In this document: positions 3,119 through 35,561 of the stretch, in pieces
Layout of the letters: every line of letters begins with the position of its first letter
Position numbering within the stretch: the first letter of the stretch is position 1
DNA from: a virus
Direction: 5' to 3' (one strand)
IMG/VR virus record: IMGVR_UViG_3300002835_000562
Coordinates: 1 to 35,714 of that record
Length of the DNA: 35,714 nucleotides
Notes under the pieces: model-generated
Database searches by the model: none
The model's input: the letters and a program-made list of their open reading frames with translations, nothing else
Told to the model about the DNA's origin: nothing
Made by a program: the position numbers and the translations under genes

Positions 3119-3131
3119 TTTTTTGTGTTTA

Positions 3132-3392
3132 TTATGCTAATAAATATGCTGTTCCAGATGTTACTGTAATACTTCTAACATAACAAGGAATTGGTTCACC
3201 TTGTGCCAATGATTCTAATTTTAAAGTAGAACGAGTGCTAGCCGGTGTTGAACCTGACGGAGTTACAAATCCTTCTAAGTATACTGAACCTGAACAAACT
3301 GCTGAACCTCTCATTACACCCCATGCATTTTCCAATGAACCGGATTGTCCTGCGGTATATTCTTTTGCGTTAAATATTCTATAATTTACCAT
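3132..3392 (-). CDS. Small beta-rich protein, possible virion component
   Basis: An 86-residue protein of very different composition from its charged helical neighbours: rich in Ser, Thr, Gly and Val, with alternating hydrophobic residues (for example VYLEGFVTPSGSTPASTRST) and two cysteines (Cys33, Cys70). It has no signal peptide or membrane segment. The composition suggests a compact beta fold such as a decoration or spike-type virion protein. That is inference from composition and its place inside the head gene cluster. It lies 3 nt downstream of the 290-residue gene. I do not recognise a family. Confidence 0.5.
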   Translation of the reverse strand: MVNYRIFNAKEYTAGQSGSLENAWGVMRGSAVCSGSVYLEGFVTPSGSTPASTRSTLKLESLAQGEPIPCYVRSITVTSGTAYLLA

Positions 3393-3395
3393 TTT

Positions 3396-4268: not shown

Positions 4269-4318
4269 CAAATTATACAATTATTCTGATATAAATATAT
4301 TTTATTATTGGTTTAATA

Positions 4319-6055: not shown

Positions 6056-6073
6056 TTTTGTTTATATTATCTT

Positions 6074-6105
6074 TAAATATACGGAAAATATTTGAGTTTT
6101 CCAAA
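6074..6105 (-). promoter_or_regulatory. Candidate Bacteroidota-type promoter before the portal gene
   Basis: On the minus strand TTTG (6102-6105), then 20 bases, then TATATTTA (6074-6081), 18 nt upstream of the portal ATG. This is one base off the Bacteroidota vegetative consensus TTTG (-33) / TAnnTTTG (-7). The TTTG lies 2 nt after the stop of the preceding gene. The same arrangement occurs at 28935-28966. AT-richness makes chance matches likely, so confidence is modest. Confidence 0.35.
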
Positions 6106-6107
6106 TA

Positions 6108-7301: not shown

Positions 7302-7334
7302 CTATAAGAGTTTCAACATATAAATATAAAAAAA

Positions 7335-8942
7335 TTACTTAAGTAACCAAGTTAGGTTTTCTATTTCACCTCTACCCACTTCCATTTCATATGGATTTTG
7401 TTTTAGATGACCTGATGAAACAAATCCTGTGTATTGACTTACTTGAGTTGAGTTTAACATTGTCTTTGTCAAATCAATTCCTTCTTGTTTTAAACGAAGT
7501 GCTGTATTACGAACCCAAAGTCCAATTGCCAATGCCATTGTTAAGTCATCATTATATCCTTTCATTGCTTCCGCTCTACCGGCAGTCCAAATGAATGTAA
7601 ATAGTTCATCTATAAGTCTTTGAGAACGAATTAGGATATCTTTACCATTTATGTATGTATCTAAAGTAGAAATAATAAGAGGTCTTGTTTTTGATGTTGT
7701 ACCAAATCCTGCAACCAATTTCTTTTCATCTCTATAAAACTTATTAGACATTTGTTTTTCAACATCGATATATTTTAAATCATTACTCATATAGAATAAA
7801 TTACCATATCCTCTATCAATTACCTGTTGGATAGTTGCCCATCCTACATTTGAGTTTTCTATAATTAATAATGCATTATTCCATTCTGTTGATACTGCAA
7901 CTAAAAAGTTTCCAAAATCTTTTGTTTCAATTTTACCTCTATATTCTGCAACCTGTGAACTATCTTCTATGTCTATTATTTGGAATGTAGAATAATCCGA
8001 ACCATCACCTCTCGCGACATCGGCAACTACCATATATGCTCTATTGTAATTAGGATGTTCCCATTTCCAATAATTTCCGTCAAACCCACTTTTTTCAATC
8101 GGGTCCATAACATATGTGTCTTTATACCATGTTAATAATGCTGGGTCGATTACAGTATCTCCTGAACCTACGAAATCACAATCACACTCTTGTGCTGCAC
8201 CTTTTACTCCCAATATACGAGTTTGTTCATCTCTCCATGATTGATTTCTTTCAGGATGAACAGTCCAATGTAAATTTATATTATTAAATCCGTTTGCACC
8301 ACTCTCACCATCGACCCACATTTTATGGAACCAGTTACCCACACCATTCGGAGTAGATAATACAATTGCAGAACCACCCGTTGATAATGTAGATTGTGCC
8401 GATAACCAAATTTCATCAATATCTCTAATGAATGCAGCTTCATCCACAACTAACAATGACAATGCTTCCGAACGGCCCGCGTCTGGAGAACTTGCGATTG
8501 CTTTTACTTGTGAACCATTTTTTAATTTAAGGGAAAGTTTATTATCTTCTACTGAACTATTACCACCATCTCTTAACCATACAGGAAGTAAGTCGTGCAT
8601 TACTCTTACCTTTTCAACTAAGTTTTTTGCTACAGTTACTTTTGTTGCAATAACCAATGCGTTAAAGTCTTGGTTAAATAACATTTTCCAAAGAATAAAT
8701 CCTGCTGATAATGTTGATAAACCCAACTGACGGGATTTAAGAATGATATTTAATCTATTTTCTTTAAAATCCGTTAAACACTCCTCCTGGAAAGGATAAA
8801 GGTGAAAGGGTATTTTTCCTCTCACCGGGTGCTGAATAACACAATACTTCTTCATAAAGTAAATGGGGTCTAACGCACATTTACGATATTCTTCAGCTAT
8901 TATTTCTTTTAATGACTTCTTAGGTTGCCCTTGAACTCCCAT
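7335..8942 (-). CDS. terL: Terminase large subunit, T4 gp17-like
   Basis: This 535-residue packaging motor would pump DNA through the portal and cut the concatemer. N-terminal ATPase: adenine-motif region YPFQEE (49-54), Walker A SRQLGLST (70-77), Walker B LLVVDE (163-168) with catalytic Glu168, and coupling motif STPNG (196-200). The linker has QECDCDFVGSGDTVID (251-266), as in T4-like terminases. C-terminal RNase H-type nuclease: Asp308 in VVADVARGDGSDYS, a second acidic site in LIIENSNVGW, and YNDDLTMALAIG near the end. Length is slightly below T4 gp17 (610). Stop and start overlap with the upstream gene (TAATG). No recognisable small terminase is present; the 222-residue gene two places upstream is a positional candidate. 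Confidence 0.95.
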   Translation of the reverse strand: MGVQGQPKKSLKEIIAEEYRKCALDPIYFMKKYCVIQHPVRGKIPFHLYPFQEECLTDFKENRLNIILKSRQLGLSTLSAGFILWKMLFNQDFNALVIATKVTVAKNLVEKVRVMHDLLPVWLRDGGNSSVEDNKLSLKLKNGSQVKAIASSPDAGRSEALSLLVVDEAAFIRDIDEIWLSAQSTLSTGGSAIVLSTPNGVGNWFHKMWVDGESGANGFNNINLHWTVHPERNQSWRDEQTRILGVKGAAQECDCDFVGSGDTVIDPALLTWYKDTYVMDPIEKSGFDGNYWKWEHPNYNRAYMVVADVARGDGSDYSTFQIIDIEDSSQVAEYRGKIETKDFGNFLVAVSTEWNNALLIIENSNVGWATIQQVIDRGYGNLFYMSNDLKYIDVEKQMSNKFYRDEKKLVAGFGTTSKTRPLIISTLDTYINGKDILIRSQRLIDELFTFIWTAGRAEAMKGYNDDLTMALAIGLWVRNTALRLKQEGIDLTKTMLNSTQVSQYTGFVSSGHLKQNPYEMEVGRGEIENLTWLLK

Positions 8943-14540: not shown

Positions 14541-15077
14541 TTATTTATTGTATAATTCTGGGTATTCCGTTAATATATGAATACCACCATTTTCAATTGC
14601 ATATTTATAAGATAATTCAACATCTTGCCATGTTTTTAAATCATGTATTTCAATATTTGGACACATTGTTTTAAATTCTTCAATATAATTTGCTTTATGT
14701 TGGTGGCCAGGGTCTAATGGTGTGTCCGCACCTTTACCAACTCTAATAAGTATATTGACTTTGTTTTCCGTCATTAATTCATATTTGTCAATGTGATTAA
14801 CTAATTGATTTGTTGCTGATATAATAAAATCCCATCTTGGGTAGAATGTAATAACTCTTTTTCCAGTCATTGCCAAACCCAAACTCATACCCATTTGAGT
14901 TTCTTCCATAACAGGAACTTCAATCATTTTTTCTTTTGGTACATTTGTTAAAGTTGTACTCATAGGATTTCCGGCATAAACTATTTGTTGGCCGATGAAT
15001 ATTGTATCTTCCAATTTGGCCAGTTCTGTCATTACATTTATTAATGTATCTTTATATGATATTTCGTTTGTATTCAT
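14541..15077 (-). CDS. ThDP-dependent enzyme, pyrimidine-binding (E1-beta-like) subunit
   Basis: A 178-residue protein matching the pyrimidine-binding domain of E1-beta/transketolase-type enzymes: ISYKDTLINVMTELAKLED at the start, the EVPVMEETQMGMSLGLAMTG core, and FYPRWDFIISATNQLVNH. Glu58, five residues before Gly63, aligns with the Glu that activates the cofactor's aminopyrimidine ring. Normal E1-beta has about 325 residues; the whole C-terminal transketolase domain is missing, so this is a minimal subunit. Its likely partner, the diphosphate-binding subunit, is encoded at 21077-21706. No E2 or E3 genes are present, so decarboxylation to acyl-CoA is unlikely; two-carbon transfer onto a sugar is the more natural idea. 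Starts in an ATGA overlap with the upstream gene. Confidence 0.8.
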   Translation of the reverse strand: MNTNEISYKDTLINVMTELAKLEDTIFIGQQIVYAGNPMSTTLTNVPKEKMIEVPVMEETQMGMSLGLAMTGKRVITFYPRWDFIISATNQLVNHIDKYELMTENKVNILIRVGKGADTPLDPGHQHKANYIEEFKTMCPNIEIHDLKTWQDVELSYKYAIENGGIHILTEYPELYNK

Positions 15078-21076: not shown

Positions 21077-21706
21077 TTAAAATGCTATCCATTTACCTGT
21101 TCCGTAATGTGGAAATTTTGATTCGTATGAATAATATATAACATCATCGGGTATTTCTCTTTTTTTATTCCAAGTTGCTTCGGTTGGAGTATAGGTTGAT
21201 ACTCCATTATCTTCCACCACAAATACAATTGGTAAATCAAAGTTTTTTGCGTATTTGTGCACTTCATAAAATATACCACTTTCAAAAGACATGTCACCAA
21301 TAAATACAAATACTTTTTCATCACTACCTTTTTCTTTAATTCCCATTGCAACTCCCAATGCTATTGATAATGTGCCACCCACAATTGCAGATGAATAAAA
21401 CTTTTCATTTACCTTGCAAAGAGTGATTGATTTTCCTTTAAGAATTTCTTCTTCAATCCAAACAGGACACACTTCTTTTAATAATGCATGGTAGTGAGAA
21501 CGCCATGTACTAAAAACCCAATCCGAAGTTTTAATTCGTTTGAATATTTCAATCAATTGTTCTTCATTGCCATTTGATAAATGAATCGGGCCTCTTATTT
21601 TTGCATCTTCCCAATGCTTTACTATTAAATTTTCAAAATCAATTAAAGATTCCTTTGTTTGTTGAATATCTCTTACTATTGGATATTGTTCTAAATTTTT
21701 TATCAT
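21077..21706 (-). CDS. ThDP-dependent enzyme, diphosphate-binding (E1-alpha-like) subunit
   Basis: A 209-residue protein. The ATG at 21704-21706 is chosen because it overlaps the upstream stop as ATGA; a longer in-frame reading would run 66 nt into that gene. STWRSHYHALLKEV (66-79) parallels the R-x-H-x-H-A-L-x-K segment of E1-alpha. GGTLSIALGVAMG (110-122) and GDMSFESG...VEDNG (137-168) form the ThDP motif: Asp138 and Asn167 would bind Mg and the diphosphate. E1-alpha is usually over 320 residues; only the cofactor domain remains. It pairs with 14541-15077. The two genes bracket six glycan genes, unlike the usual adjacent alpha-beta arrangement. Product unknown. Confidence 0.82.
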   Translation of the reverse strand: MIKNLEQYPIVRDIQQTKESLIDFENLIVKHWEDAKIRGPIHLSNGNEEQLIEIFKRIKTSDWVFSTWRSHYHALLKEVCPVWIEEEILKGKSITLCKVNEKFYSSAIVGGTLSIALGVAMGIKEKGSDEKVFVFIGDMSFESGIFYEVHKYAKNFDLPIVFVVEDNGVSTYTPTEATWNKKREIPDDVIYYSYESKFPHYGTGKWIAF

Positions 21707-22248
21707 CTGTCTCTTTTTTGTAATATTGGGTTTGTTGTTGGCCATTCCATTTGATATTCGGGGTCGTTCCATTTTACTACACCTTGCTCATCTGCATCCA
21801 CATAACCATCTTTATAAAATAAGTTATAATGAAACATACAATCGGTTAATGCGTAGTGTCCGTTTGCAAACCCCGGTGGTACTAGAACTTGGTTTCTATT
21901 TCTTTCGGATATAATAAATGCTTCCCACTCTCCTGATGTTGGTGAATTTAATCTCATATCTAAAACGACTAAATAAATATCACCTACTGCAGCTTGAACC
22001 AATTTCCACGTCTTACTATCCCAATGTAATCCTCTCAATACACCTTTGTATGATTTTGAAAACCTACCATGAATACTAATCTCACTTTTGTCATAGTGTA
22101 TTTGTGTCATTACAGGATGTTCTTCCGAATGAAAAGTTGTAAATATCTCACCTCTGTATTCTCTATAAATTGATGGAGTATATGTTGGTACTTCATAACC
22201 AAATTTTTTCGATGGAGTAATTTGAAACTCATCCCATTTGTTACTCAT
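21703..22248 (-). CDS. rfbC: dTDP-4-dehydrorhamnose 3,5-epimerase-like (RmlC family)
   Basis: A 181-residue cupin close in length to RmlC (about 180-185). Family features: GVLRGLHWDSKTWKLVQ (69-85) with Arg72, catalytic His75 and Lys82; GDIYLVVLDMRLNSPTSG; VLVPPGFANGHYAL; and a terminal WNDPEYQMEWPTTNPILQKRD. It would epimerise C3 and/or C5 of a 4-keto-6-deoxy NDP-hexose, a step before the SDR reductases. No RmlA or RmlB is encoded here, so the substrate must come from the host or other phage genes. It sits between the third SDR and the ThDP subunit with 1-nt spacing and an ATGA overlap. Confidence 0.9.
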   Translation of the reverse strand: MSNKWDEFQITPSKKFGYEVPTYTPSIYREYRGEIFTTFHSEEHPVMTQIHYDKSEISIHGRFSKSYKGVLRGLHWDSKTWKLVQAAVGDIYLVVLDMRLNSPTSGEWEAFIISERNRNQVLVPPGFANGHYALTDCMFHYNLFYKDGYVDADEQGVVKWNDPEYQMEWPTTNPILQKRDR

Positions 22249-22249
22249 A

Positions 22250-23221
22250 TTATGTTTGATTTGCGTATCCTAAAGGAAAACCATTTCTAAATTCAAAACC
22301 CATTTTTGGTACTATCATTTGATATGCCATTATAAGTTCTTTAATACCTCTATCTAAATCCCATTGTGGGCCCCATCCTGTTGCTTCTAACTTATTGTTT
22401 GATACAATGTAGTTTCTCTTGTCTGGGTCCTCATAATAGTCATCGTAGACCACAGCAAAGTCATTTACATGAGATTGTATTTTTTCCAATAACTCTTGTT
22501 TTGAAAGATTTGCATTACTCAATCCTACATTAAAAACTTCACCTTTATATTTGTCATAATGTTGAATCATAAAACAAAAAGTAAATGCAATATCCTGAAT
22601 ATGGATAAAGTTTCTTTTAAATTGTTTTTCGAATACAACAATATATTTGTCAGTTATTGCTTTATAAACAAAATCGTTTACCAATAAGTCTGTTCTCATT
22701 CTTGGTGAAACTCCAAAGACAGTTGCTAATCTAAATATGATTGCATCCGTTGATGTTCTTAAAAAGTTTTCTGCGTCACATTTGGTTTGACCATAAACTG
22801 AAATTGGTGTGAGTGGTGATTCTTCGGTACATTCTAATTGACCGGTACTTAAACCATATCCACTATTTGTATTTGGATATAAAATCTTTTTACCTTTTCC
22901 ATTTGTAAATTTAACAATATTAACTATTTGTTGAAAATTAATTTCTTTTGCAAGTTTTGGGTCTTGTGCACATGCAGGAAATCCTACAATTGCAGCAAGA
23001 GGAATAATTACATCTGCTTCATTACAAAGTTTTTCCAATAGTGTTTCATTACGAACATCACCATGTATAAATTTAAATTTTGACTTTGATGTGTATTGTA
23101 ATAGGGAAGTTTGATTGAATAATAATTTATCCAAAACAATAACCTCATAACTTTGTTCTAATAATTTTCCAACTAATACCGAACCCAAATAACCTGCACC
23201 TCCTGTAACTAAAATTTTCAT
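22250..23221 (-). CDS. UDP-glucose 4-epimerase-like SDR
   Basis: A 323-residue extended SDR with a classical active site: ILVTGGAGYLGSVLV (3-17), GDVRNETLLEKL, LAAIVGFPAC, YPNTNSGYG, then SVYGQTKCDAE with the Tyr-x-x-x-Lys pair, and FRLATVFGVSPRMR. RNFIHIQDIA and the VFNVGLSNANLSKQELLE region bind the nucleotide-sugar. It is more conventional than the other two SDRs. The likely reaction is C4 epimerisation, dehydration or decarboxylation of an NDP-sugar. One nucleotide separates it from each neighbour. Confidence 0.88.
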   Translation of the reverse strand: MKILVTGGAGYLGSVLVGKLLEQSYEVIVLDKLLFNQTSLLQYTSKSKFKFIHGDVRNETLLEKLCNEADVIIPLAAIVGFPACAQDPKLAKEINFQQIVNIVKFTNGKGKKILYPNTNSGYGLSTGQLECTEESPLTPISVYGQTKCDAENFLRTSTDAIIFRLATVFGVSPRMRTDLLVNDFVYKAITDKYIVVFEKQFKRNFIHIQDIAFTFCFMIQHYDKYKGEVFNVGLSNANLSKQELLEKIQSHVNDFAVVYDDYYEDPDKRNYIVSNNKLEATGWGPQWDLDRGIKELIMAYQMIVPKMGFEFRNGFPLGYANQT

Positions 23222-23222
23222 A

Positions 23223-23924
23223 CTAACAAGTTTCTTCTACTTTAATTAAATAGTTTGAATTTCCTGAAAAATCCCAAACTTTGTGTGGAGTTTTTTTTAA
23301 AAAATCATAACACACAACTATATTTTTATTAAATTTATTTTTAATATAATCATATTCATTTAAATTTTCATATAAATTATTTTTTAAATATACTACATCG
23401 TCTATATCTACAATAGAATCACATAATAAATAAAAATCATAATAACATTCCATAAAATTTGTATTTTCTTCTCTATCGTATGCACCACATCCAAAGAAAA
23501 TTGGTAAATTATTATAATCGTTATATTTACCATCTATAATAACACTATCTTCTAATTTAGAATTTACATAAAATGAAAATTTATTTTCTTTACTTGAAAA
23601 TGTTATAGTTAATAAATTAAATTCATTAAAAAAATTAATATCATTTATTTGTTTTTTTAAACAAATAAATTTATTTTCAACACCATCATTATACCAAATA
23701 TCATATCTTACTTCTTTATCTTTTAAAATCATAAAACCAGAATGCATACCAGGTCTCAAACAAATTCCACCCAATTGAGTATCTTCAAATATTTCTCCTG
23801 ATTTAAAGGATACGGACATTGTGAAATCTCCTGAGTTGGTGACTATCAGTGCATCTTTTTTAACCATACCATATGATTGGAATGGCCATATTTGCCATGG
23901 TTTTTTAAAATCTATTTTCATCAT
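23223..23924 (-). CDS. Free-standing LamG/concanavalin-like domain protein
   Basis: A 233-residue beta-rich protein: SGDFTMSVSFKSGE, DIWYNDGVENKFICLKKQ, FNLLTITFSSKENKFSFYVNSKLEDSV and PIFFGCGAYDREEN make the strand pattern of a LamG-like jelly roll (strand, then LTIT/FYVN hairpin, then short G-x-x strand). A C-terminal D-F-S-G-N-S-N-Y-L echoes the ends of other LamG proteins. It is related in layout to the LamG inserts in the two GT7 genes at 26028-28738. It may bind a glycan or protein. No signal peptide. It starts in an ATGATGA overlap with the radical SAM gene; either of two adjacent ATGs may be used. Confidence 0.65.
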   Translation of the reverse strand: MMKIDFKKPWQIWPFQSYGMVKKDALIVTNSGDFTMSVSFKSGEIFEDTQLGGICLRPGMHSGFMILKDKEVRYDIWYNDGVENKFICLKKQINDINFFNEFNLLTITFSSKENKFSFYVNSKLEDSVIIDGKYNDYNNLPIFFGCGAYDREENTNFMECYYDFYLLCDSIVDIDDVVYLKNNLYENLNEYDYIKNKFNKNIVVCYDFLKKTPHKVWDFSGNSNYLIKVEETC

Positions 23925-25351
23925 ATAATAATATTTTTTGAAAAGTTATAAAATTCTTCTAATTCTGGGAATGTTTTTACAAAATTGGTTCCCCTTCTTT
24001 TATCGTGTTCGGTTACAAATATTCCAAAATCTTTTTGGCTTTGTAAAATAAATTTAGGGTCTATATCAGTTGATGTTGACCAGTCATATATTCTTTTTAA
24101 TTTTTGTATCTCTACATCGGAATAACCAATATATTTGTGGTCAAATTTTGGAACACCATAATACAATGCTAATTTGGCATGTTCTAAAATATTTTCTTTA
24201 AAATCACTTGGTAAAATTTGAACAGTTTGATGCCATGGGAATCTTAAATAAGAACTATCCAACATTACAGCGGATGGCCAATATCTATCCGATGAACCAT
24301 ATTCTTTTTTCAAATCATATACACCTTTGATTAATTTATCATAAGTAAACACACTCAATGCATTGTATGTTACCATAAATGTAATAACAACTCTTGGACA
24401 TTTTGTAAGAATTTTATTTACATTACCCCAAAAACGATTAAATTCCATTCCATGTCTAATATATTCCGCCTGTTTTCCCCATGCATCTGCAGAGGTGAAA
24501 ATAATAAATTCATTTATTCTTCCCTCATCGATTATCTTATTTACTTTATCAATAAATTTATCAATCAATGCATCTGGTGCACCTAAGTTAGTATTAATAG
24601 AAAGATTTAATTTTTTATTAGGATTTGGGTGGTCTATGATATAATCTAAAACTTTCCAAGTATCTTTGGCTAATAGAGGTTCTCCTCCTGTTATTCTAAA
24701 TGTATGTAAATCGTTATATAAATCCGGCCACCATTTCCAAAATGCTTCATTATATGGATTGTGTTCGTTTTGTTTTATTGGTGTTTTTTGTTCTCTTGTC
24801 AACCAAACTGGGTCATTGAAACTAGTAGATGTATTATATCCACCAAATTCTTCCATTTCTTCCATCCATTGTGTAGAAAATGCAGGGCCGCAATATGAAC
24901 ATTTAAAATTACAAGTATTACTAAATGCCACCTCTACATATCTTGGATTAAAATCGTCTCTCCAATCGGCATTAACAATTTCATTATAAAATGGTTTAGA
25001 CCAACTTTCAGCTGATTTAAAAATTCTATCACTAAACCTATCGGAATTATCTTCTACACCCCAACAATAATCACACTCCTCCGGTCTTGCTCCACTTAAC
25101 ATTTCTTTTCTACGAAGTTTTTTATATCTCGTATTATGTAGTGCCGATGGATTGCGTGCAATTTCGGTTTCAGATATTTTATGTGTTCTGGGGTGATGAC
25201 AAGAGTGATTGTGCCCATTTTGTAAGTGCATAGTAACCTGTGTCCATTTTGCTAAACACATTCCTTTCCCAACTTTATCCAATTCATTTTTTGTCTCTAC
25301 ATAAACAGGATTTTCAAATCCATAATTATTAGGCTTTTTTTCTTCACTCAT
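23921..25351 (-). CDS. Radical SAM enzyme with N-terminal Cys cluster (twitch type)
   Basis: A 476-residue protein. The radical SAM cluster motif is CNFKCSYC (Cys147, Cys151, Cys154), followed by FRITGGEPLLAKDTW and LNLSINTNLGAP, standard elements of the partial TIM barrel. Upstream, Cys32, Cys51, Cys93 and Cys96 (ECDYCWGVED) make a possible second Fe-S site, as in twitch/SPASM radical SAM proteins, where it is usually C-terminal. It acts on an unknown substrate: peptide or sugar modification, or carbon-skeleton chemistry. The setting among sugar genes favours sugar or glycoprotein work. It is 3 nt downstream of a methyltransferase gene. Confidence 0.85.
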   Translation of the reverse strand: MSEEKKPNNYGFENPVYVETKNELDKVGKGMCLAKWTQVTMHLQNGHNHSCHHPRTHKISETEIARNPSALHNTRYKKLRRKEMLSGARPEECDYCWGVEDNSDRFSDRIFKSAESWSKPFYNEIVNADWRDDFNPRYVEVAFSNTCNFKCSYCGPAFSTQWMEEMEEFGGYNTSTSFNDPVWLTREQKTPIKQNEHNPYNEAFWKWWPDLYNDLHTFRITGGEPLLAKDTWKVLDYIIDHPNPNKKLNLSINTNLGAPDALIDKFIDKVNKIIDEGRINEFIIFTSADAWGKQAEYIRHGMEFNRFWGNVNKILTKCPRVVITFMVTYNALSVFTYDKLIKGVYDLKKEYGSSDRYWPSAVMLDSSYLRFPWHQTVQILPSDFKENILEHAKLALYYGVPKFDHKYIGYSDVEIQKLKRIYDWSTSTDIDPKFILQSQKDFGIFVTEHDKRRGTNFVKTFPELEEFYNFSKNIII

Positions 25352-25354
25352 ATT

Positions 25355-26035
25355 TTATTTTTTATATATAAAACTATTATAATTGTATTCACATTTTGTT
25401 TTGTCCAATTTATAATAATCTATAAAGTCATCAATAGCTTTTGTTACAGAGTCGTATGCAATGTCATCACAGATTATGTAACCACCTTCTTTAATCTTAG
25501 GCCACCAGTTTACTAAATCTGCATATACATAGTCATAATAATGGTTTCCATCTATATAAACCATTTTAAAATAATTATCATCAAATAATTTATATCCATA
25601 TTTAGAATCACAACAAATTTGTTCTACATATTCTTTTAAACCTATTTTAATAAGAATATCTTTTACTAAATTATAGATATCTGCGTATCTATGTTTTTCT
25701 CTAAAATCTTTAAATGATTTTGGATGTCTGTCTAACATTAATGATGATTCTACTTCATAATAAATGTCCATAGAATAGAATTTAATATTTTTCTTTGAAT
25801 CTCTAATTAATTCGGCCATTCGTGCTGCGGATTGGCCGAAGAAAGTACCAATTTCTAATAATTTGTCACCATCTTCCGATTCATTTACAATCTTCTCATA
25901 AATCCACTCTGCGTCATTAATCCATCCTGGAATGTCTTTGTATGATTGCATTGTATGAAAATTATACTGCTTTTTTATTAATTTATTTGCATCGAAAGCT
26001 TGTTGCAAAAATTCTTTGTCTGTATGCTTATCCAT
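25355..26035 (-). CDS. Class I SAM-dependent methyltransferase (Methyltransf_24/TylF-like)
   Basis: A 226-residue protein with motif I LLEIGTFFGQSAARMAELI (about 59-77), the acidic end FYSMDIYYEV, YIDGNHYYDYVYADLVNWWPKIKEGGYIICDD, and a helical C-terminus. DGNHxYxxVxxDL followed by GGxIxxDD is characteristic of the TylF/CmcI/Methyltransf_24 group, many of which O-methylate sugars or natural products, with the Asp/Asn/His triad binding Mg. The paralogous set in this window also includes 29837-30610. It overlaps the first GT7 gene by 8 nt. Confidence 0.85.
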   Translation of the reverse strand: MDKHTDKEFLQQAFDANKLIKKQYNFHTMQSYKDIPGWINDAEWIYEKIVNESEDGDKLLEIGTFFGQSAARMAELIRDSKKNIKFYSMDIYYEVESSLMLDRHPKSFKDFREKHRYADIYNLVKDILIKIGLKEYVEQICCDSKYGYKLFDDNYFKMVYIDGNHYYDYVYADLVNWWPKIKEGGYIICDDIAYDSVTKAIDDFIDYYKLDKTKCEYNYNSFIYKK

Positions 26036-27446
26036 TGGTTTTTACATTTATAAGTTTATGTTTACCAAATATATTTTCTATTTCCAACAAGGTATATTTT
26101 TCATTTATGTTTGACATACCATCTTTTTTATAATCTATTTTACCTTGCTGCATTTCTAAGATATATCGTCTTTCATTTCTTGCAGTAGTTTCACCTTTTG
26201 CCCATTTATCAATTCCACCTGTTTTAATTAATCCTTCAGTTTGATGTGGTAAGCATTTAAATTTACCATTTTTTCTGTAAGGTAATATAGTGTGTGGTAT
26301 TTCTATTTTTTCCTTTGTTAATTCAATATTTTCCATTTGACCAAATTCTAAATTCATAGTGAATATATCTAATATCAAATTATCTTCGGGCATTTCTTTA
26401 TGTAGATTTTTTACCTCATCGGATGTTAAACATCTATCCCACATTTGTATGCTAGCAATTCCTCCTTTAAAAAATACTTCATTGGGAGATTTTGAATATC
26501 CAATTGTAAACGGCTCCATACCATATCGTTTCAATGGTTCATTATAACTAAGTGGTGATTGTGTTCCCGTTCCCAATCTTGCATCACTTTCTCTACCATT
26601 TAAATAGAAATGTATTTTTTTATTTTCCGCATCTACTGACATAGTAATCCAACTCCATTGATTTTCATATCTTTTAATCCATTGATATAAATGATTTTTC
26701 ATTCTATCCCATATTTGGAGTGTATATGCTCTACTATTATTAAATGACAACCCCCAATCATATCCTGGTTTTCTAAATATTGGGTATTCTATAAATTGTC
26801 TATTTTGGTCACCGATTAACCAGATAGGAACTTTTTCAATTTGTTGGTCTGCTTTAACTAATATAGAAATTGTATGTGAATTAGAAATACAATCCTTTTG
26901 TTCTCTGGATGGTCTTAATTGTATTTTAGAATTTATACCATTAAAATTTGCTACATATTTTTCTTTACTATAATTTAATTTTGTTTCTTCTGCATAACCT
27001 TCCATTACACATCTCCAAAATAAATCATCATCTTCCATGCCCCAATCCCAATAGTCGTTTGAATATCCGTTAGTTCGTTCTACTTGTTCTTTTGAGAATA
27101 CAACTGCACCACCAAAGTATTCTTCATACTTTAATTGATAATCTGATTGTGAAATACGAACTGCAATATGTTGTGGGTTATCATTAGGAAACGAATAATC
27201 ACAACTCTCATCTTCAGGAACCATATCGATATCATGCCATACAATGTAATCACACCCATCATCAAATGCGTGTTTTGCTGCAATGTTTTTCATTAAACCT
27301 CTGTTAAATAATTCGTTATCACATTGATGTGCTAAGTAGATTGTATGTTCGATTCCTCTTTCTTCTAAAAATTTAGATACATGAGGAACAAATTGATTCA
27401 TATGTTCTTCTCTATTTCTATATGGTACACAAACTCCTAATTTCAT
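26028..27446 (-). CDS. GT7 beta-1,4-galactosyltransferase-like enzyme with LamG insert, copy 1
   Basis: This 472-residue protein has the full GT7 set at the N-terminus: VPYRNREEH (7-15), FNRGLMKN (47-54), the DxD HDIDMVP (71-77), YFGGAVVFSKEQ (110-121) and the donor/acceptor motif NDYWDWGMEDDD (130-141). Instead of the usual short link, about 230 residues of LamG-like sequence follow (about 180-370: WSWITMSVDAENKKIHFYLNG, FKGGIASIQMWDRCLT). GT7 then resumes: KCLPHQ with His401 (the Mn-binding His of beta4GalT sits in HSRDKKN), a NERRYILEMQQGK stretch, and KKDGMSNINEKYTLLE. The LamG is thus nested in the catalytic domain. It should transfer a hexose from a UDP-sugar. Stop and start overlap with copy 2. 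Confidence 0.85.
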   Translation of the reverse strand: MKLGVCVPYRNREEHMNQFVPHVSKFLEERGIEHTIYLAHQCDNELFNRGLMKNIAAKHAFDDGCDYIVWHDIDMVPEDESCDYSFPNDNPQHIAVRISQSDYQLKYEEYFGGAVVFSKEQVERTNGYSNDYWDWGMEDDDLFWRCVMEGYAEETKLNYSKEKYVANFNGINSKIQLRPSREQKDCISNSHTISILVKADQQIEKVPIWLIGDQNRQFIEYPIFRKPGYDWGLSFNNSRAYTLQIWDRMKNHLYQWIKRYENQWSWITMSVDAENKKIHFYLNGRESDARLGTGTQSPLSYNEPLKRYGMEPFTIGYSKSPNEVFFKGGIASIQMWDRCLTSDEVKNLHKEMPEDNLILDIFTMNLEFGQMENIELTKEKIEIPHTILPYRKNGKFKCLPHQTEGLIKTGGIDKWAKGETTARNERRYILEMQQGKIDYKKDGMSNINEKYTLLEIENIFGKHKLINVKTNG

Positions 27447-28738
27447 TATATACCTACATTTAAATGAGTTATTTTATTATCTTTTGTTTTACCATATAAT
27501 GTATAATGACAATTACTTAGGCCATCATCGATATTATCGTGATACCCAAATTGTACTTCATTATTATATCTCAACTGGTTCCATCTACTATTATCATCTT
27601 GCCATCTACCATCATTAAATCCACAATCTTTGTGGTACAATTTTAAAAGTTTACTATTTCTCCTAAATGGTATATATGAATAATGATTTACAAATGATTT
27701 AAAATAATTTAAATAAACATTAAAAAATTTACCATCATTTTTATTACCAGAAATGTCGGTAAAACAATATTTTGTAATATTATAATTTTTATAATGAATT
27801 GTTATTTCATCATTTTGTTTTAATAAAAATTCATTTATAGTTCCTTTAAAAAAGCTTTCTTTTGTGCCATCGGTACCGATTATTATATCATCGGAATTGG
27901 AATAATTATATATATATTCCGAAAGTTTGATACTATTCACAATATTATTTACCACAAAAGTAATTATATTTTCTTTTTTATTATATTCTATTACTATTTT
28001 ATTTTTTGATGTTGTTACAATATCGGAATGAACATCATAGTAATTACCTTTTTTATCAAAAAGTTGTAAATAAAATCTATTAAAAGAATTATAAAAAAGT
28101 TTAAAATCGTAACCTTTTATTGATAAAATTGGAAATATATCAAATTGTTTGTTTACATCATAAATAACTTTATCTAAATTGATATCTAATTCTATTTTAA
28201 AACTTCTATTATAATTTATAATATTTGGAACCGTTGCATATGCGTCTACTCCATTAAAAATGGGTAATTTTTCGTTTGTAAATGTATCATCTATAATATT
28301 TTGAAATGGAACATTGTGTTTTATACATCTATATCTTAAGTCATCATCTTCAAATCCCCAACCCCAATACAAGTTAGAAAACCCATTTATTTTTTCAAAT
28401 AATTCGGATGGAAATAATGTGATGCCACCAAAATAAGATTCAAATGGAATATTGTCGGTGGCTAGGTGAGTGGGGGTATCCGAATAAGAATAATCTACAT
28501 CTATTGGTATCATATCTATATCATGAAATACAACATAATCACAATCCAACTTCTTAGCTCGTTCAAATCCGATATTTAGAAGCATTCCTCTATTAAATAA
28601 TTTTGCATCATCTTGTTCAACTATTATAATCTCAAAATCTATGTTATGAGATTTTAAATATTGAACTATATGAGTTTTAAATTCTATGAGATGTTCGTAT
28701 CGATTTCTGTATGGAACGATTACGCCAAGTTTATGCAT
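27446..28738 (-). CDS. GT7 beta-1,4-galactosyltransferase-like enzyme with LamG insert, copy 2
   Basis: This 430-residue protein repeats the layout of its neighbour. GT7 motifs: VPYRNRYEHLIEF (8-20), FNRGMLLN (48-55), HDIDMIP (72-78), YFGGITLFPSELFEKINGF (102-120) and YWGWGFEDDD (124-133), nearly identical to animal beta4GalT. A LamG-like insert fills about 175-340 (IVIEYNKKENIITFVVNN, FFKGTINEFLL, TDISGNKNDGKF). GT7 then closes with LLKLYHKDCG (His369) and IDDGLSNCHYTLYG. The two proteins are clearly tandem duplicates that have diverged far; this copy is more AT-rich. It overlaps the 62-residue gene upstream by 8 nt and has no signal or membrane segment, so it acts in the cytoplasm. Confidence 0.85.
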   Translation of the reverse strand: MHKLGVIVPYRNRYEHLIEFKTHIVQYLKSHNIDFEIIIVEQDDAKLFNRGMLLNIGFERAKKLDCDYVVFHDIDMIPIDVDYSYSDTPTHLATDNIPFESYFGGITLFPSELFEKINGFSNLYWGWGFEDDDLRYRCIKHNVPFQNIIDDTFTNEKLPIFNGVDAYATVPNIINYNRSFKIELDINLDKVIYDVNKQFDIFPILSIKGYDFKLFYNSFNRFYLQLFDKKGNYYDVHSDIVTTSKNKIVIEYNKKENIITFVVNNIVNSIKLSEYIYNYSNSDDIIIGTDGTKESFFKGTINEFLLKQNDEITIHYKNYNITKYCFTDISGNKNDGKFFNVYLNYFKSFVNHYSYIPFRRNSKLLKLYHKDCGFNDGRWQDDNSRWNQLRYNNEVQFGYHDNIDDGLSNCHYTLYGKTKDNKITHLNVGI

Positions 28739-28966: not shown

Positions 28967-29815
28967 TTATATTGATATTATTTTTTTAATTAATTGATTC
29001 CATTGTTTATAATCAATTTCCGTTCCAATGTATTCAAACATATATTCCTGATTTGTAACATCTATTTCAAAATTATTACTTCTTAAAGATTGATACATTT
29101 TTAAATATTCATCAGATGATGCATACTCTTTTTTAATATCTGCAACTTGTTTGATTCTTTCTATACAGGTTGAGTCCCATTTAAAGTGATGAACCTGAAC
29201 ATTGTATTCCTCAATGGGTGCAATTAAAGGGTGATTCCAACCTTGCCATCTCCATGTAGTATGTCCGTCTATTTTTGCATAATGTTGACCAGATGTAATT
29301 TCAATATATCCTTTCACTATACATACCTTATTAGGACATGCACCACTCATTGGATATCTAAAAAATCCTGCAACTGGAAATTGTTCAAATATATTTTCTT
29401 TCTTATTTATCTTTGGGAAATCTCCAACTTGTCCTATTCTATCAATAAATCCACCTCTTACTATTTCCCAACCATTTCTATCACAAGCTGATATAATTTG
29501 TTTTAATGGTTTTGAATAAATATGAAATTCATCATCGTCTGAAACTACCCACCAATCATCAGGAAATAACATTTTAGTTTCATTATATAACTGAGTAACA
29601 TATTCCCAATTGAATTTTTCTTTTGTTGCTCTTTCTACTATTCTAGCTTTTTCAAATTGTTTAGTTATTTTTAAAACTTCATTATAAGTACTAGAGCCCT
29701 CCCACTCATAAACTACAACATACATTTCGTCTACCAAATCTTTATAATGATTCAGCATATGCCACAAAGTTTCTACCCTACTACCAGTAACTGTAACTAA
29801 TCTTATTTTATTCAT
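28967..29815 (-). CDS. GT-A-type glycosyltransferase-like protein
   Basis: A 282-residue protein. The N-terminal Rossmann-like strand RLVTVTGSRVETLWHMLNHY is followed by VVVYEWEGSS and WWVVSDDDEFHIYS with acidic Asp93-Asp94-Asp95, an extended D-x-D site for metal and sugar nucleotide as in GT2- or GT92-like enzymes. Later HYAKIDGHTTWRWQGWNHP and VHHFKWDSTCIERIKQ carry His and Trp residues of the type that bind acceptor or metal. Length is complete for a single-domain GT-A enzyme, with no membrane segment. It lies between the promoter element and a methyltransferase gene. Donor and acceptor cannot be told. Confidence 0.7.
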   Translation of the reverse strand: MNKIRLVTVTGSRVETLWHMLNHYKDLVDEMYVVVYEWEGSSTYNEVLKITKQFEKARIVERATKEKFNWEYVTQLYNETKMLFPDDWWVVSDDDEFHIYSKPLKQIISACDRNGWEIVRGGFIDRIGQVGDFPKINKKENIFEQFPVAGFFRYPMSGACPNKVCIVKGYIEITSGQHYAKIDGHTTWRWQGWNHPLIAPIEEYNVQVHHFKWDSTCIERIKQVADIKKEYASSDEYLKMYQSLRSNNFEIDVTNQEYMFEYIGTEIDYKQWNQLIKKIISI

Positions 29816-30610: not shown

Positions 30611-31554
30611 AACTCTTTATTTGTATATTTTTCTAGTGCATTTCTTAATTTACAAAATTCTAAATTTACTTTTTCAAATTCGTCTTCTTGTAATTCTAAA
30701 TATCTTTGGTGAAATTCTCCTTTACTATTTGCTCTATATTTGTAATCAATGTGTTTCATCCAATCGGTATGTATAATTGGAACTTTGCCATTATCAACTG
30801 CATCAAATATTGCATATCCAAATGGTTCTTTTATATAACACCCATGAAATATTTGAAAATTACTTTCAAAAAATTTATTATGAAATGTATAATCAAATTC
30901 CATAAACCTATGATAATCCGAATTAGTTTTTGACCCTTCTAACATTCTTTTGTAATCATACTTGTTTGAAAATATAATTGATGGAATGTAATCTAAATAA
31001 TGTGCATTTTTTCTGGTTTCACATCTTGCAGCATATCCAATCTTATTACTTATAATTCCTGTGAATGGTTTATTGTGTTTCCATTCATAGTAATTTGTAA
31101 TAGTTTTTGTTTTTGGATATTCATTATGTATTGTATCTTTTTCATATCCTATCCAAACTACATTGTCGGAATTATCTAATATTTCTTTTTGCCATTCCCA
31201 ATCGACTTTTGTCATTATATTTTCATAATCAGAATTCAATCCTAACATATCAGGAATGAAAGCATGAACAAATGTAAGATAAGTTTTGTGTAAATAGTTT
31301 TTAATAATGGGATTTGGTTTGTAAGAATGATGTAAGAAAATAATCTTATCACATTCGTCTAATATTTTATCAACTTCTTTTTCGTTTCCAAAAGTGTATA
31401 TTGCATCAATTTCTCTAACCAATGGCCTGCCGTCAATTATAATTTTGTAATCTTCTTTGACTAATGGTAAAACATTTTCAATAAAGTTATTACACCATAA
31501 ATCGGCACCACCTATAACATTTTTTCCGTAACCTGTTGTAATAAGTACTATCAT
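30571..31554 (-). CDS. GT-B-type glycosyltransferase-like protein (GT4-like)
   Basis: A 327-residue protein beginning VLITTGYGKNVIGGADLWCNNF, the glycine-rich acceptor-side loop of GT-B enzymes. KIIFLHHSY and YLTFVHAFIPDM follow. The C-terminal domain has IGYAARCETRKNAHYLDYIP and YIKEPFGYAIFDAVDNGKVPIIHTDW; the latter matches the donor-binding E-x-F-G-x-x-x-x-[DE]-A-x-x-x-G-x-P-V region of GT4, with the second acidic residue Asp. It overlaps the tail-fibre gene by 4 nt (ATGA) and is the first gene of the glycan block. Confidence 0.8.
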   Translation of the reverse strand: MIVLITTGYGKNVIGGADLWCNNFIENVLPLVKEDYKIIIDGRPLVREIDAIYTFGNEKEVDKILDECDKIIFLHHSYKPNPIIKNYLHKTYLTFVHAFIPDMLGLNSDYENIMTKVDWEWQKEILDNSDNVVWIGYEKDTIHNEYPKTKTITNYYEWKHNKPFTGIISNKIGYAARCETRKNAHYLDYIPSIIFSNKYDYKRMLEGSKTNSDYHRFMEFDYTFHNKFFESNFQIFHGCYIKEPFGYAIFDAVDNGKVPIIHTDWMKHIDYKYRANSKGEFHQRYLELQEDEFEKVNLEFCKLRNALEKYTNKELWIQKINNYLIQN

Positions 31555-34500
31555 ACTGAACCCGTTATCATTAAAGTATCACGAAATTCCCTTTTCCACT
31601 TTTCGGTTTTATATTTACCATCACCGCCATATGTACCACCCGTCAATACTTCCGTATCACATCTTTCAGCAATAACTGTCCAATCCACCGATGCGGATGA
31701 ATTTTGATTTTCACTAACAACATATACATTTCCATCTTCAATTTTACCTTTTATTCTATCAAATGAATCATTATTTTGTAAAAATAATTGTGCATTTCTT
31801 GTTAATGAATTAAATGTTCCATTTGTTAATCTTGCAGAAATATCTATATTAGAACTACCTTCACCATTTATTAAATTTATTTTACCTCTATAAATCAAAT
31901 CTGCTTGTGGGCCTTCAATTGCAGTGTGATATAACCATTTATTTTCATCTAATGGATGTGTAATTTGGAATTGTTTAGTAGTCGCAGAAAACGTACCATT
32001 AACAGATAGTCCTGACAAAAATTGAGACTTTCCTTTTACTTCAAAAAAGTTTTCACCGGATACAGCCGACACAGATGCGTTCATATAATTCCTAACACCT
32101 GTATACACTTGTAATCCTGCAGGTGCCAATTGTGAAAATCCATTATCTACTCTACCAAACTGTACTTTTACAGTTGAACCAAAATCATTCATATAAACTA
32201 ATGCAGAGTCATCATATGGGTCGCCATTACTAGTTGCGCATTGAACATATTGTTCTAAATAAACATAAAACCAGTTTTGATTACTATCTACTTGAAAACC
32301 ACCTCCAAAAATACCATATGAATAATCAGCATAACTGAATGTGTTACCTGCTAGTTTTACTAAATTATTTTCAACAATAGTTGACCTATATGTTTGAATT
32401 AAATTTGTTCTATTGGCAGCGTGTGTATAAGATGCATATTTTTCTGCAACCAATGTTAATTGATACTTTGCACGTACTCCATCATCATTATTAATCGTTC
32501 CACCATTAACTTGAATAGTAGCAAGGAATTGTAATAAAGTTAAACCATTTACCCCATCTCCATCAACCCAAATTTCTTCGGTAGGATTTTCTAAGTATAT
32601 GATACCTGTACCCCTATAACCTAGACTACCATCAATATCACCTCTACCACTTGTTGCGGTTAATGTTCTGGTTTCTTCTTGAGAACTATCACCACTAACC
32701 GTTAATCTTGTAGTCGCTGCATATGTAAAATTAACAAAGTCAAACGAAGAAACAGCTATTGCCGGAATAGTTGTTGCCGGTGATATTTTTACTTTTGTTT
32801 GATTTGTACTATCTCTTGTAATAAAATAAGAAGCATCAGTTGAACTCAATTTAATAGTATGTGTACCATTACTTTTAAATAATGAGTTCCCATTAAAATT
32901 CCATCCCGCAATTGAACCGGTATCAAATTGTGCATCTCTACCAAAAAACTTTAATGAAGCAATTTTTTCCGCAACGATTGAGTCGGCTATTATTTTACCA
33001 GTACTAATTGAATTATCGTCTATGTAAGTTGCATTAACCGAACTACGTGTCGCTAATGCACCCAAACCGGTTACATCCGCTGTTGCCGATACACTACTTT
33101 TTAATGCCAAAGAACCAAGTCCTGCAACCGATGCGTTTGGAACCGTTACACCCGCACTTAGTGTTAGTGATGTTGCCGTAATACCACCTTGAATAGATAA
33201 ATTGTCACCATCAAAAGTTAGTTTACTGCCCAATGAAAATACATTAGTAGAACCCGATGCAAAATAAAATGGTGTATTTGCATTTGCATATGTACCAGTT
33301 CCTACATAAATCTTTTTATTTCCTCCATCCAAAGTGATTCCATTTTGACCTACTTTAAGAATTTCACTTATATACCCCGCATTACCAGCTAAAACAGGAG
33401 ACGAAATAGAACGTGCACTAATAAATGTTGTACCACCACCCGTCCAATCCCCAGCTGCTAATAAGTTTACAGAAGCACTTGCATCGGCTTTTGCTTGTGC
33501 AATCGCAGCCTGTTGTGCAGCCGTTGCTGCAACTGAACCGGATGTTACGGCTCGTCCTGCAGCACTTGATGCAAATAACTCTGCAGCGGTTTGTGCAGCT
33601 GCCGCTGAAACTGAACCCGATGATACTGCATTTGTTCCAATAGTATTTGCATAAGTTTGTGTAGCAGCATTACCAGCTGTTACATTTATAGTACCATTTA
33701 CAGAAAGATTTCCACTTGTATCAAATGTTAATTTATCTTTAAGAGAAAATTGTCCTGTACTATCCATATAAACGGATGTATTTACATTATTATAAGTTCC
33801 TGTTCCTACATATATTTTTCGAGTTGTAGTAGATGCGTCTAATACAATTGGATTTGTTTTACCGACTTGAAATTTATTACTAAAATATCCGTCTATACCT
33901 GCTATATTTGGTGAATAAATTGAAGAACTTTCTATAAATGTTCCAGGATATCCACCATCTGCTAATAATTTTACATTTGAAAGAGATGCAGATAATGTAA
34001 GTGCAACACTTCTTGATACCGAACCACTTAATGTAGTTATTGTTCCACTAACCGATGAACTTACACTAGTCAAACTACCACTAATAGATGAACTTGTTAA
34101 TGTTACTGTTCCACTAATTGAAGATGATACCCTATTTAAATCTGCTAAAGAACCCGATGCAGAAGAACTTATCAATGTAAGTGTACCATTTATATTATTG
34201 TTACCACCTGTAAATAATGCAGATTGTGTTACTGCAACAGGTACATAGTTATTGTTTACATCATAAAATTCAAATTTAAAATTATAAGTTTCATTACCTA
34301 ATACCGTCGGCATTGTAGTAACAAATGAAATCTCATCTGGAGAAAATGCGGTATCCTGTGATAATCGTAAACTAATATTTCCCAAATGCCATTCACCTTG
34401 AGATTGTGAAAAGTATAAAGATGCAGATGGATAATCCCTATCTATCCTAAATGGTATTACCGTATCTAATAAATTTTTTGTAGGTTGCGTTCCTATTAAT

Positions 34501-35561
34501 GTTGAAATACTGCTTGATATTGTTGTCGGTACCGTTACACCATTTACTACTGAAGTTGTAATTTGATTTAAATATATTCCCAAATTACTTGAAGTAGATG
34601 ATGAATAAAATGCATCTAAATTTAATTCATATGTATTTGAACTTTTAATATCCAAAGAAGATGAATATGTAAAATACCCACTACCTGTTAATCTAACACC
34701 ACTTTCAACTCTACTGGATGTAAGATATGCATTTAACGAACCTGTATTCCAATTATTTTTAAGTGTTTCCGATGTTAGTATTCCAGTCTGGCCTACTACA
34801 CTTCCTGACAAACCATATGATGTTAATAATTCTTTTGACTCAACCAATATATCTTGTATCAAATCATAATCGGAAATATCACCTTCAGAAGTTCTAAATA
34901 CTTTTACTCTTTTAACATCACCTGCAAATGTTTCTAATTTTGAAAGTTTAATATTTGCAAAGGATTGTGTAACTGCAGATGCGACTTTTAAATCATTTTC
35001 TATTCTATATAGTGGACTAAGTAATTCGGTAATAGTAGCTTGTGGCCTTTGGTAAAATCTAATCTTTGTAGTATTAGCTAATGCCGGATTTACATTTATA
35101 GTTTTTGTCCACTTAACATTGTATTTATTTTCCCAATCTAAAGGAACGGGAAGTGTAATACCATTTGTATCTTGATACTCACTTAACTCACCTAATATAG
35201 TAAGTGTACATGGCCCAAATGCCGTATCGGGATAAACATAAACCGATACTACCTTTGAAACACCTTCATAATATTCGGTTATAATGGGTTTATCATTAGT
35301 ATCTTTAAATGATGATGAAAAGTATCCTTCACCTGGTTCGTGATAAATTATATTACCTGCCGAATCTTTTAATTCAATTTGTATTTTAGTATCTGGAACT
35401 AATTCTTGTGAACCTGCAATTAAAAATGCATTCTTACCACCTGTAAATGTATCAGGCAATTCTGTTATTTTAAAATATCTACTATTAGGTTCCGTATCAT
35501 TTACTAATACGGCGTACTTGTCTAAGTTTTTAGCAAATAAAGTTTTTTGTATAACAGCCAT
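31551..35561 (-). CDS. Tail-fibre-like virion protein with internal repeats
   Basis: This 1336-residue protein is Ser/Thr/Asn-rich with low Cys. The N-terminal 200 residues (MAVIQKTLFAKNLDKYAVLV; ITELPDTFTGGKNAFLIAGS) look like a particle-attachment region. Residues 465-522 contain five SSSxSG-type tandem units. A module at about 532-640 (LLADGG...KIYVGTGTYNN...LTFDTSGNLSVNGTINVTAG) recurs at about 700-805 (LLAAGD...KIYVGTGTYAN...LTFDGDNLSIQGG), joined by an Ala-rich helix (640-698). The C-terminus KQFQITHPLDENKWLYHTAIEGPQ resembles a module found at the ends of many tail fibres. Trimeric beta-fibre structure is inferred. It starts after a 100-base non-coding gap and shares ATGA with the first glycosyltransferase gene, so fibre and glycan genes are linked. 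Confidence 0.8.
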   Translation of the reverse strand: MAVIQKTLFAKNLDKYAVLVNDTEPNSRYFKITELPDTFTGGKNAFLIAGSQELVPDTKIQIELKDSAGNIIYHEPGEGYFSSSFKDTNDKPIITEYYEGVSKVVSVYVYPDTAFGPCTLTILGELSEYQDTNGITLPVPLDWENKYNVKWTKTINVNPALANTTKIRFYQRPQATITELLSPLYRIENDLKVASAVTQSFANIKLSKLETFAGDVKRVKVFRTSEGDISDYDLIQDILVESKELLTSYGLSGSVVGQTGILTSETLKNNWNTGSLNAYLTSSRVESGVRLTGSGYFTYSSSLDIKSSNTYELNLDAFYSSSTSSNLGIYLNQITTSVVNGVTVPTTISSSISTLIGTQPTKNLLDTVIPFRIDRDYPSASLYFSQSQGEWHLGNISLRLSQDTAFSPDEISFVTTMPTVLGNETYNFKFEFYDVNNNYVPVAVTQSALFTGGNNNINGTLTLISSSASGSLADLNRVSSSISGTVTLTSSSISGSLTSVSSSVSGTITTLSGSVSRSVALTLSASLSNVKLLADGGYPGTFIESSSIYSPNIAGIDGYFSNKFQVGKTNPIVLDASTTTRKIYVGTGTYNNVNTSVYMDSTGQFSLKDKLTFDTSGNLSVNGTINVTAGNAATQTYANTIGTNAVSSGSVSAAAAQTAAELFASSAAGRAVTSGSVAATAAQQAAIAQAKADASASVNLLAAGDWTGGGTTFISARSISSPVLAGNAGYISEILKVGQNGITLDGGNKKIYVGTGTYANANTPFYFASGSTNVFSLGSKLTFDGDNLSIQGGITATSLTLSAGVTVPNASVAGLGSLALKSSVSATADVTGLGALATRSSVNATYIDDNSISTGKIIADSIVAEKIASLKFFGRDAQFDTGSIAGWNFNGNSLFKSNGTHTIKLSSTDASYFITRDSTNQTKVKISPATTIPAIAVSSFDFVNFTYAATTRLTVSGDSSQEETRTLTATSGRGDIDGSLGYRGTGIIYLENPTEEIWVDGDGVNGLTLLQFLATIQVNGGTINNDDGVRAKYQLTLVAEKYASYTHAANRTNLIQTYRSTIVENNLVKLAGNTFSYADYSYGIFGGGFQVDSNQNWFYVYLEQYVQCATSNGDPYDDSALVYMNDFGSTVKVQFGRVDNGFSQLAPAGLQVYTGVRNYMNASVSAVSGENFFEVKGKSQFLSGLSVNGTFSATTKQFQITHPLDENKWLYHTAIEGPQADLIYRGKINLINGEGSSNIDISARLTNGTFNSLTRNAQLFLQNNDSFDRIKGKIEDGNVYVVSENQNSSASVDWTVIAERCDTEVLTGGTYGGDGKYKTEKWKREFRDTLMITGSV
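33996..34169 (-). repeat. Tandem SSSxSG repeats in the fibre gene
   Basis: Codes for residues 465-522 of the fibre protein. After a longer first unit of 14 residues (SSSASGSLADLNRV), four 11-residue units follow: SSSISGTVTLT, SSSISGSLTSV, SSSVSGTITTL and SGSVSRSVALT. This is a probable extended helix-turn or beta-spiral shaft. DNA repeats like these can expand or contract and so change fibre length. Confidence 0.7.

Follow-up and report, generated by a model that had tools for sequence, protein, structure and literature searches.

A LamG-like domain nested within the predicted GT7 glycosyltransferase fold of two adjacent viral proteins

The CAZy family GT7 includes beta4GalT1 and beta4GalT7, in which a GT-A core with FNR, D-x-D and WGWGxEDDD motifs is followed by a histidine of the metal-binding type, a flexible-loop region and a DG-L/M-S/N end. 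Other glycosyltransferases with a GT-A fold, including the GALNTs (GT27, ricin-type), POMGnT1 and GnT-IVa/MGAT4A, have lectin domains that guide or regulate the enzyme in its handling of acceptor or product (PMC9296478). In pelagimyophages, a host recognition cluster contains tail fibres, glycosyltransferases and radical SAM (S-adenosylmethionine) cassettes, and the reading preferred by the study's authors is that the host O-chain is modified (PMC7029224). Here we describe two adjacent genes from a 35.7-kb record of an uncultured virus of bacteria with tailed-phage genes (IMG/VR record IMGVR_UViG_3300002835_000562; the window refers to this whole stretch of 35,714 nucleotides). Their products, protein A and protein B, share the features of beta4GalT1 and beta4GalT7 listed above, but they are viral, have no membrane anchor that we could see, do not conserve the Met ligand of beta4GalT1, and carry a LamG domain of 210-230 residues between the EDDD helix and the His strand. 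Like the GALNTs, POMGnT1 and GnT-IVa, they join a carbohydrate-binding-type domain to a GT-A enzyme (PMC9296478), however, the lectin domains of those enzymes are N- or C-terminal and have other folds, whereas the domain of A and B is nested and LamG-like.

A first-pass annotation of the window, made from the letters alone, had proposed that in both proteins the GT7 motif set runs as far as EDDD, is interrupted by a LamG-like domain, and resumes with His401 or His369 and a DGMSN or DGLSN end. We confirmed this order in both proteins. The Pfam matches of A are GT7N at residues 2-84, GT7C at 93-154 and Laminin_G_3 at 186-346 (E-value (E) 2e-10), and those of B are GT7N (E 1.1e-21) and GT7C (E 2.4e-17), with Laminin_G_3 under the cut-off (E 0.028). 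Both GT7 families were also matched (E<=0.01) in all 83 A and all 87 B aligned relatives. The best matches in the PDB are beta4GalT7 and beta4GalT1 (E~1e-28 for B and E~6e-30 for A), with alignments that end soon after EDDD. The conserved His lies 260 residues past the last Asp of EDDD in A and 236 residues past it in B, whereas compact GT7 proteins have a median spacing of 24; the figure of about 230 given earlier therefore holds for B and is low for A.

Scans of IMG/VR yielded at least 177 candidate stretches per protein and at least about 540-550 with profile queries. The search for the same nested layout recovered 335 distinct full-length proteins from many metagenomes, nearly all viral, which separate by score into three paralogous classes, A (131), B (143) and D (61). 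EDDD is intact in 131/131 members of class A and 127/143 of class B, the His motif is present in 131/131 and 137/143, and His401/His369 and the DG pair (D442-G443 in A, D405-G406 in B) are conserved at >=90%. Judging from Pfam, the catalytic motifs and the C-terminal His/DG segment, we assign A and B to GT7.

To place the segment that follows the insert, we compared the nested proteins with compact ones, meaning insert-free GT7 homologues from Halieaceae (L169), Parachlamydiaceae (L170), Simkania (L171) and others, which have the same motifs on both sides of the insertion point and lack the insert. In a set of 447 distinct GT7 open reading frames (ORFs), those with a detected C segment were either nested, with a LamG, or compact, with no intermediates. 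A post-insert profile built from A and B matched the C-termini of compact GT7s (best E 2.6e-8), and every match among 2,295 ORFs was a GT7. The reverse search, from compact C-termini to viral C-termini, reached a best E of 3.5e-12, and 339/342 of its matches were GT7 ORFs. A full profile of compact GT7s aligned with beta4GalT1 end to end, from position 8 to 238 of 240 (E 7e-57), including DGLNSL. By hand, GLTIES-RAGTFLSLSHP of the Parachlamydiaceae protein aligns with GYAEET-[233 aa]-RKNGKFKCLPHQ of A, which sets the insertion point after the EDDD helix and ahead of the His strand.

Covariation was measured by mean-field direct-coupling analysis of the 335 nested proteins (effective number 195, paralogues mixed). 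Among the top 25 pairs, all 8 that connect different parts join the GT7 N part with the C part across the insert, for example C42-L454, V122-M444, T35-K464, H59-Y451 and D131-R423, and none joins the LamG to GT7. Since N-C pairs make up ~20% of the possible inter-part pairs, 8/8 is far from chance, though the pairs are not independent and the paralogues are mixed. The couplings of the LamG are internal, and one of them (N172-N373) ties its first strand region to its last.

AlphaFold2 models were confident for both proteins, with a mean predicted local distance difference test (pLDDT) of 94.5 and a predicted template modelling score (pTM) of 0.90 for A (alignment of 83 natural relatives) and 94.2 and 0.89 for B (87 natural relatives). 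After the insert, the order strand, helix, strand, strand is that expected of GT7. Confidence dips to about 76 at residues 401-420 of A and 371-380 of B, immediately past the His, at what we take to be the expected position of the beta4GalT1 flexible loop. Foldseek matched beta4GalT7 and beta4GalT1 (E about 1e-13), with a root-mean-square deviation of 1.2-2 Å across about 150 columns for most. Among the viral models of BFVD, coverage of A by any match stopped at about one third (TMq, the query-normalised score, <=0.34), and none was a named relative. The pTM values, the order of strands and helix, and the N-C couplings favour a predicted GT-A fold that closes around the insert, though Foldseek did not bridge it. 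Together, homology, covariation and confident models support assignment of the last segment of A and B to GT7, and they speak for the earlier proposal that a LamG is nested inside the GT7 fold twice, in a position immediately ahead of the metal-binding His and of the flexible loop. An arrangement with the LamG C-terminal and the last segment outside the GT7 fold was not seen.

The insert is a complete ConA-like/LamG domain of about 210-230 residues; in B its boundaries were set by alignment with compact GT7s and are accurate to a few residues. Laminin_G_3 was matched in 78/87 aligned relatives of B, and we call the B insert a LamG because these relatives match the family and the fold matches LamG. 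By Foldseek, the B insert resembles the LG domains of neurexin and laminin as well as CBM40 (E~1e-6), and the A insert resembles the LG domain of PAPP-A and the pentraxins (E 1e-9 to 1e-10). In class A, 36/218 LamG positions are conserved at >=90%, and the polar and aromatic residues kept include E220, R225, N236-R239, Y254, W256, K258 and R259. The acidic ligands of a pentraxin-type double Ca2+ site were not apparent by eye in the A LamG.

A and B belong to a nearly invariant cassette within the phage structural region, in which B is followed by A, a twitch radical SAM gene and a free LamG gene. B is directly upstream of A where it could be called by a simple score (55 among 72 distinct A loci), the twitch radical SAM gene is directly downstream of A in 69/72, and a free LamG gene follows it in 67/72, which extends the earlier call of a third LamG gene in the window, itself confirmed by a weak Pfam match. 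SDR and RmlC-like genes often come next. In the window, A is separated from the radical SAM gene by a methyltransferase gene, which most relatives lack at this place. In the sequence TAATG, the stop codon of B shares one base with the start codon (ATG) of A, and A overlaps its next gene by 8 bases. In one relative (L090:4001-6742), A and the twitch radical SAM are in one 914-aa frame without the last residues of A, which is either a real fusion or a deletion. The linkage of the cassette suggests a joint function.

The nested layout, the retained catalytic motifs, the cassette and its host-recognition-like location are well supported. The activity, sugar, acceptor, LamG ligand and biological target of A and B we infer as follows. 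The best overall explanation, in which our confidence is evenly balanced, is that A and B are nested, soluble GT7 glycosyltransferases whose LamG holds an acceptor or product glycan, and that they modify a host glycan. Both look soluble and well folded. We hypothesize that they are cytosolic, metal-dependent, inverting enzymes of the beta1,4-galactosyltransferase kind, and by analogy with GT7 such transfer from a nucleotide sugar is quite probable. Past the catalytic EDDD helix, the chain would exit the GT-A core, build a complete LamG/ConA-like sandwich docked on that core, and re-enter it to add the strand of the metal-binding His, the flexible loop and two final strands. Going only by position along the chain, the insert is expected to lie close to the acceptor site, where the LamG could hold the acceptor (or product) glycan beside the closing loop of the active site, and thereby tune acceptor choice or processivity. 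That the LamG binds such a glycan is a prediction that could go either way; it is supported by the conserved polar and aromatic residues of class A and by the precedent of the lectin domains in GALNTs, POMGnT1 and GnT-IVa. By the same analogy with known lectin-bearing glycosyltransferases, a role for the insert in choosing the acceptor would be reasonable.

We further hypothesize that A and B work sequentially on a glycan made with the cluster's own sugar-nucleotide genes. The likeliest target would be a host surface glycan (the O-chain of lipopolysaccharide), such that receptors are changed and competing phages excluded, and we give this about half of our confidence. The second choice, the phage's own Ser/Thr-rich fibre, appears doubtful by comparison. 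As a tentative extension, these proteins may form a class of viral glycosyltransferases, widespread but undescribed, in which the insert, on binding a sugar, would be mechanically coupled to closure of the loop; they would then act as one fixed module with the radical SAM protein and the free LamG to remodel host or virion glycans.

Several observations weigh against this overall explanation. The LamG is the least conserved part of these proteins, with lower conservation than the GT7 core, and few conserved positions are common to the LamG of A and that of B. LamG domains bind proteins too. The Met ligand of beta4GalT1 (M344, bovine) is replaced, counting from the His without gaps, by Cys398 in A and Lys366 in B. 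Foldseek aligned the N part and the insert separately without bridging the insert. Used by itself against the PDB, the post-insert profile missed beta4GalT and gave only chance matches, to arenavirus GP2, at E>=0.04; the link to beta4GalT therefore requires compact GT7s as a bridge. The Met is also missing from the compact bacterial GT7s that were inspected. As it is a feature of beta4GalT1 and not of the family, we do not hold its loss to exclude GT7 membership, though the metal preference of A and B may differ.

In the alternative that survives best, the nested LamG would serve for protein-protein docking and would not be a lectin; it would assemble A, B, the radical SAM protein and the free LamG, or dock the enzymes on a phage structural protein (e.g. 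a fibre) that is then glycosylated. A separate LamG gene fixed in the operon in 67/72 loci would suit such a module, as would the single frame that joins A to the radical SAM in L090, the protein-binding habit of many LamG/LNS domains, with neurexin among the fold matches, and a fibre-like protein with 22.6% Ser+Thr just upstream. We nonetheless consider it the less probable reading, as sugar-nucleotide enzymes abound throughout the cluster and several of the fold matches are carbohydrate-binding (CBM40, pentraxin). Less probable again is a LamG that is a rigid structural extension, shaping or covering the active site and itself without a ligand. Its fixed placement is implied by the high pTM, and the domain's low conservation would fit, however, some of the 36 class A positions conserved at >=90% are polar or aromatic and not obviously needed for a beta-sandwich.

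It is very improbable that the LamG is merely a C-terminal appendage followed by a segment unrelated to GT7. Foldseek and phmmer do align the N part only, and the post-insert profile alone misses beta4GalT in the PDB, but this reading is contradicted by the two-way homology of the C segment with compact GT7s, the end-to-end match of the latter to beta4GalT1, the couplings that span the insert, and the conserved His and DG. An assembly or gene-calling artefact that fused two genes or reads, or a chance juxtaposition, is ruled out for practical purposes by the 335 distinct full-length proteins that share the layout across many metagenomes without intermediates.

We found no description of a GT7 with a LamG in the open-access full text and databases searched, in line with the annotator's remark that no described example was known. 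The study of the pelagimyophage cluster gives GT8 as its main family, makes no mention of LamG or laminin, and contains no description of the B-A-radical SAM-LamG cassette (PMC7029224). The parts (GT7, LamG, twitch radical SAM) are already known, and it is the nested arrangement and the viral cassette that were not found described in these sources. Known lectin-guided glycosyltransferases have the lectin at a chain end, and a nested lectin-like domain would be a natural test of how binding and catalysis are coupled. The design is retained across three paralogous classes and in a viral cassette of four genes that hardly varies, and it points to a common, unstudied route that aquatic phages may use to rewrite surface glycans.

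The simplest history of A and B is one insertion followed by duplication. A single clade of nested proteins was not rejected (approximately unbiased test, p-AU 0.40) in a weakly supported tree, and the LamGs of A and B are more alike than free LamGs, with the B LamG profile scoring a median of 83 bits on A LamGs and 32 bits on free LamGs. Given these values, two independent LamG insertions are not needed. Class D is a third tandem paralogue, in the order D-B-A (e.g. L140:814-2307 and L118:785-2272), that keeps the nested LamG. The EDDD and C-terminal His motifs were not found in most of its 61 members, and these sequences suggest a pseudo-enzyme or a changed activity beside active ones.

No relative of A or B was found among 50,697 phage records. 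A few contigs of metagenome-assembled genomes also have the nested layout, including one from Pelagibacterales (L163) with the same B and A pair followed by radical SAM-sized and SDR-sized genes. In a bacterial-looking contig (L167, 4244-13410), a GT7-LamG gene stands with genes for an SNF2 helicase, a leucine-rich-repeat kinase, a GT2, an ABC exporter and HlyD, an order hinting at a secreted glycosylated product in this cellular relative. A full-length match was found in 2/168 genomes of the same phylum, and together with the contig this rules out a virus-only trait.

Like the host recognition clusters that T4-like marine myophages (pelagi- and cyano-) carry, the window has glycosyltransferase and radical SAM genes with a tail-fibre-like gene inside a structural region (PMC7029224). 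Its glyco-genes are flanked by head protease, portal and terminase genes (1792-8942) and by a putative fibre-like gene (31551-35561). The window fits this type of island; VrlC and the neck gene gp14, its borders in PMC7029224, were not identified in a fragment that ends near 35.7 kb. Features are collected in Table 1.

Table 1. Features of the window, with the segments and motifs of proteins A and B
Feature	Position	Strand	Basis or remark
Head maturation protease	1792-2382		
Portal	4319-6055		
Terminase large subunit	7335-8942		
Protein of 1363 aa	10303-14394		Cytidylyltransferase-like N-terminus; remaining 1,200 residues without significant family
RmlC (dTDP-4-dehydrorhamnose 3,5-epimerase-like)	21703..22248	(-)	
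SDR, NAD-dependent sugar epimerase/dehydratase	22250..23221	(-)	Frequent next cassette gene
Free LamG	23223..23924	(-)	Weak Pfam match, E 0.0028
Twitch-domain radical SAM protein	23921..25351	(-)	N_Twi_rSAM, NF033640
Class I methyltransferase	25355..26035	(-)	Methyltransf_24; separates A from radical SAM gene
Protein A, 472 aa	26028-27446	(-)	ORF confirmed
A last GT7 segment, about residues 390-472 + stop	26028..26279	(-)	Profile match; couplings T35-K464, C42-L454, D131-R423
A DGMSN	26109-26123		
A His401	26244-26246		
A LamG-like insert, about residues 157-389	26280..26978	(-)	Laminin_G_3, Foldseek, coupling N172-N373
A GT7 N-terminal part, residues 1-156	26979..27446	(-)	Pfam, PDB, Foldseek
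A EDDD 138-141	27024-27035		Motif WDWGMEDDD
A DID 72-74	27225-27233		A also with FNRG
Protein B, 430 aa	27446-28738	(-)	ORF confirmed
B last GT7 segment, about residues 358-430 + stop	27446..27667	(-)	Profile match, N-C couplings, AlphaFold2
B DGLSN	27512-27526		
B His369	27632-27634		
B LamG-like (ConA-like) insert, about residues 149-357	27668..28294	(-)	Pfam weak, relatives strong, Foldseek
B GT7 N-terminal part, residues 1-148	28295..28738	(-)	Pfam GT7N/GT7C, PDB, Foldseek
B EDDD 130-133	28340-28351		Motif WGWGFEDDD; also FNRG and H72-DID (DID 73-75)
GT2-like glycosyltransferase	28967..29815	(-)	Upstream of B; under Pfam cut-off
Large tail-fibre-like protein, 1336 aa	31551..35561	(-)	Upstream of glyco-cluster; Ser-rich repeats, 22.6% Ser+Thr

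A single-strand gene run extends from 10303 to 31554, and many of its members are for sugar or methyl modification. These encode three epimerases of the SDR type, a further one that is RmlC-like, two parts of a thiamine pyrophosphate (TPP) enzyme, the 1363-aa protein with its cytidylyltransferase-like N-terminus, methyltransferases, a GT2-like enzyme and the radical SAM protein, whose substrate may be a glycan or a protein of the cassette. The long Ser/Thr-rich protein upstream appears fibre-like from the character of its sequence and is a candidate glycosylation target; its PHROG matches are weak and to families of unknown function. Within the glyco-cluster, transketolase pyrimidine-binding and E1/TPP-binding domains are encoded separately (14541-15077 and 21077-21772). 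They resemble a split TPP enzyme, and an unusual sugar might be the product.

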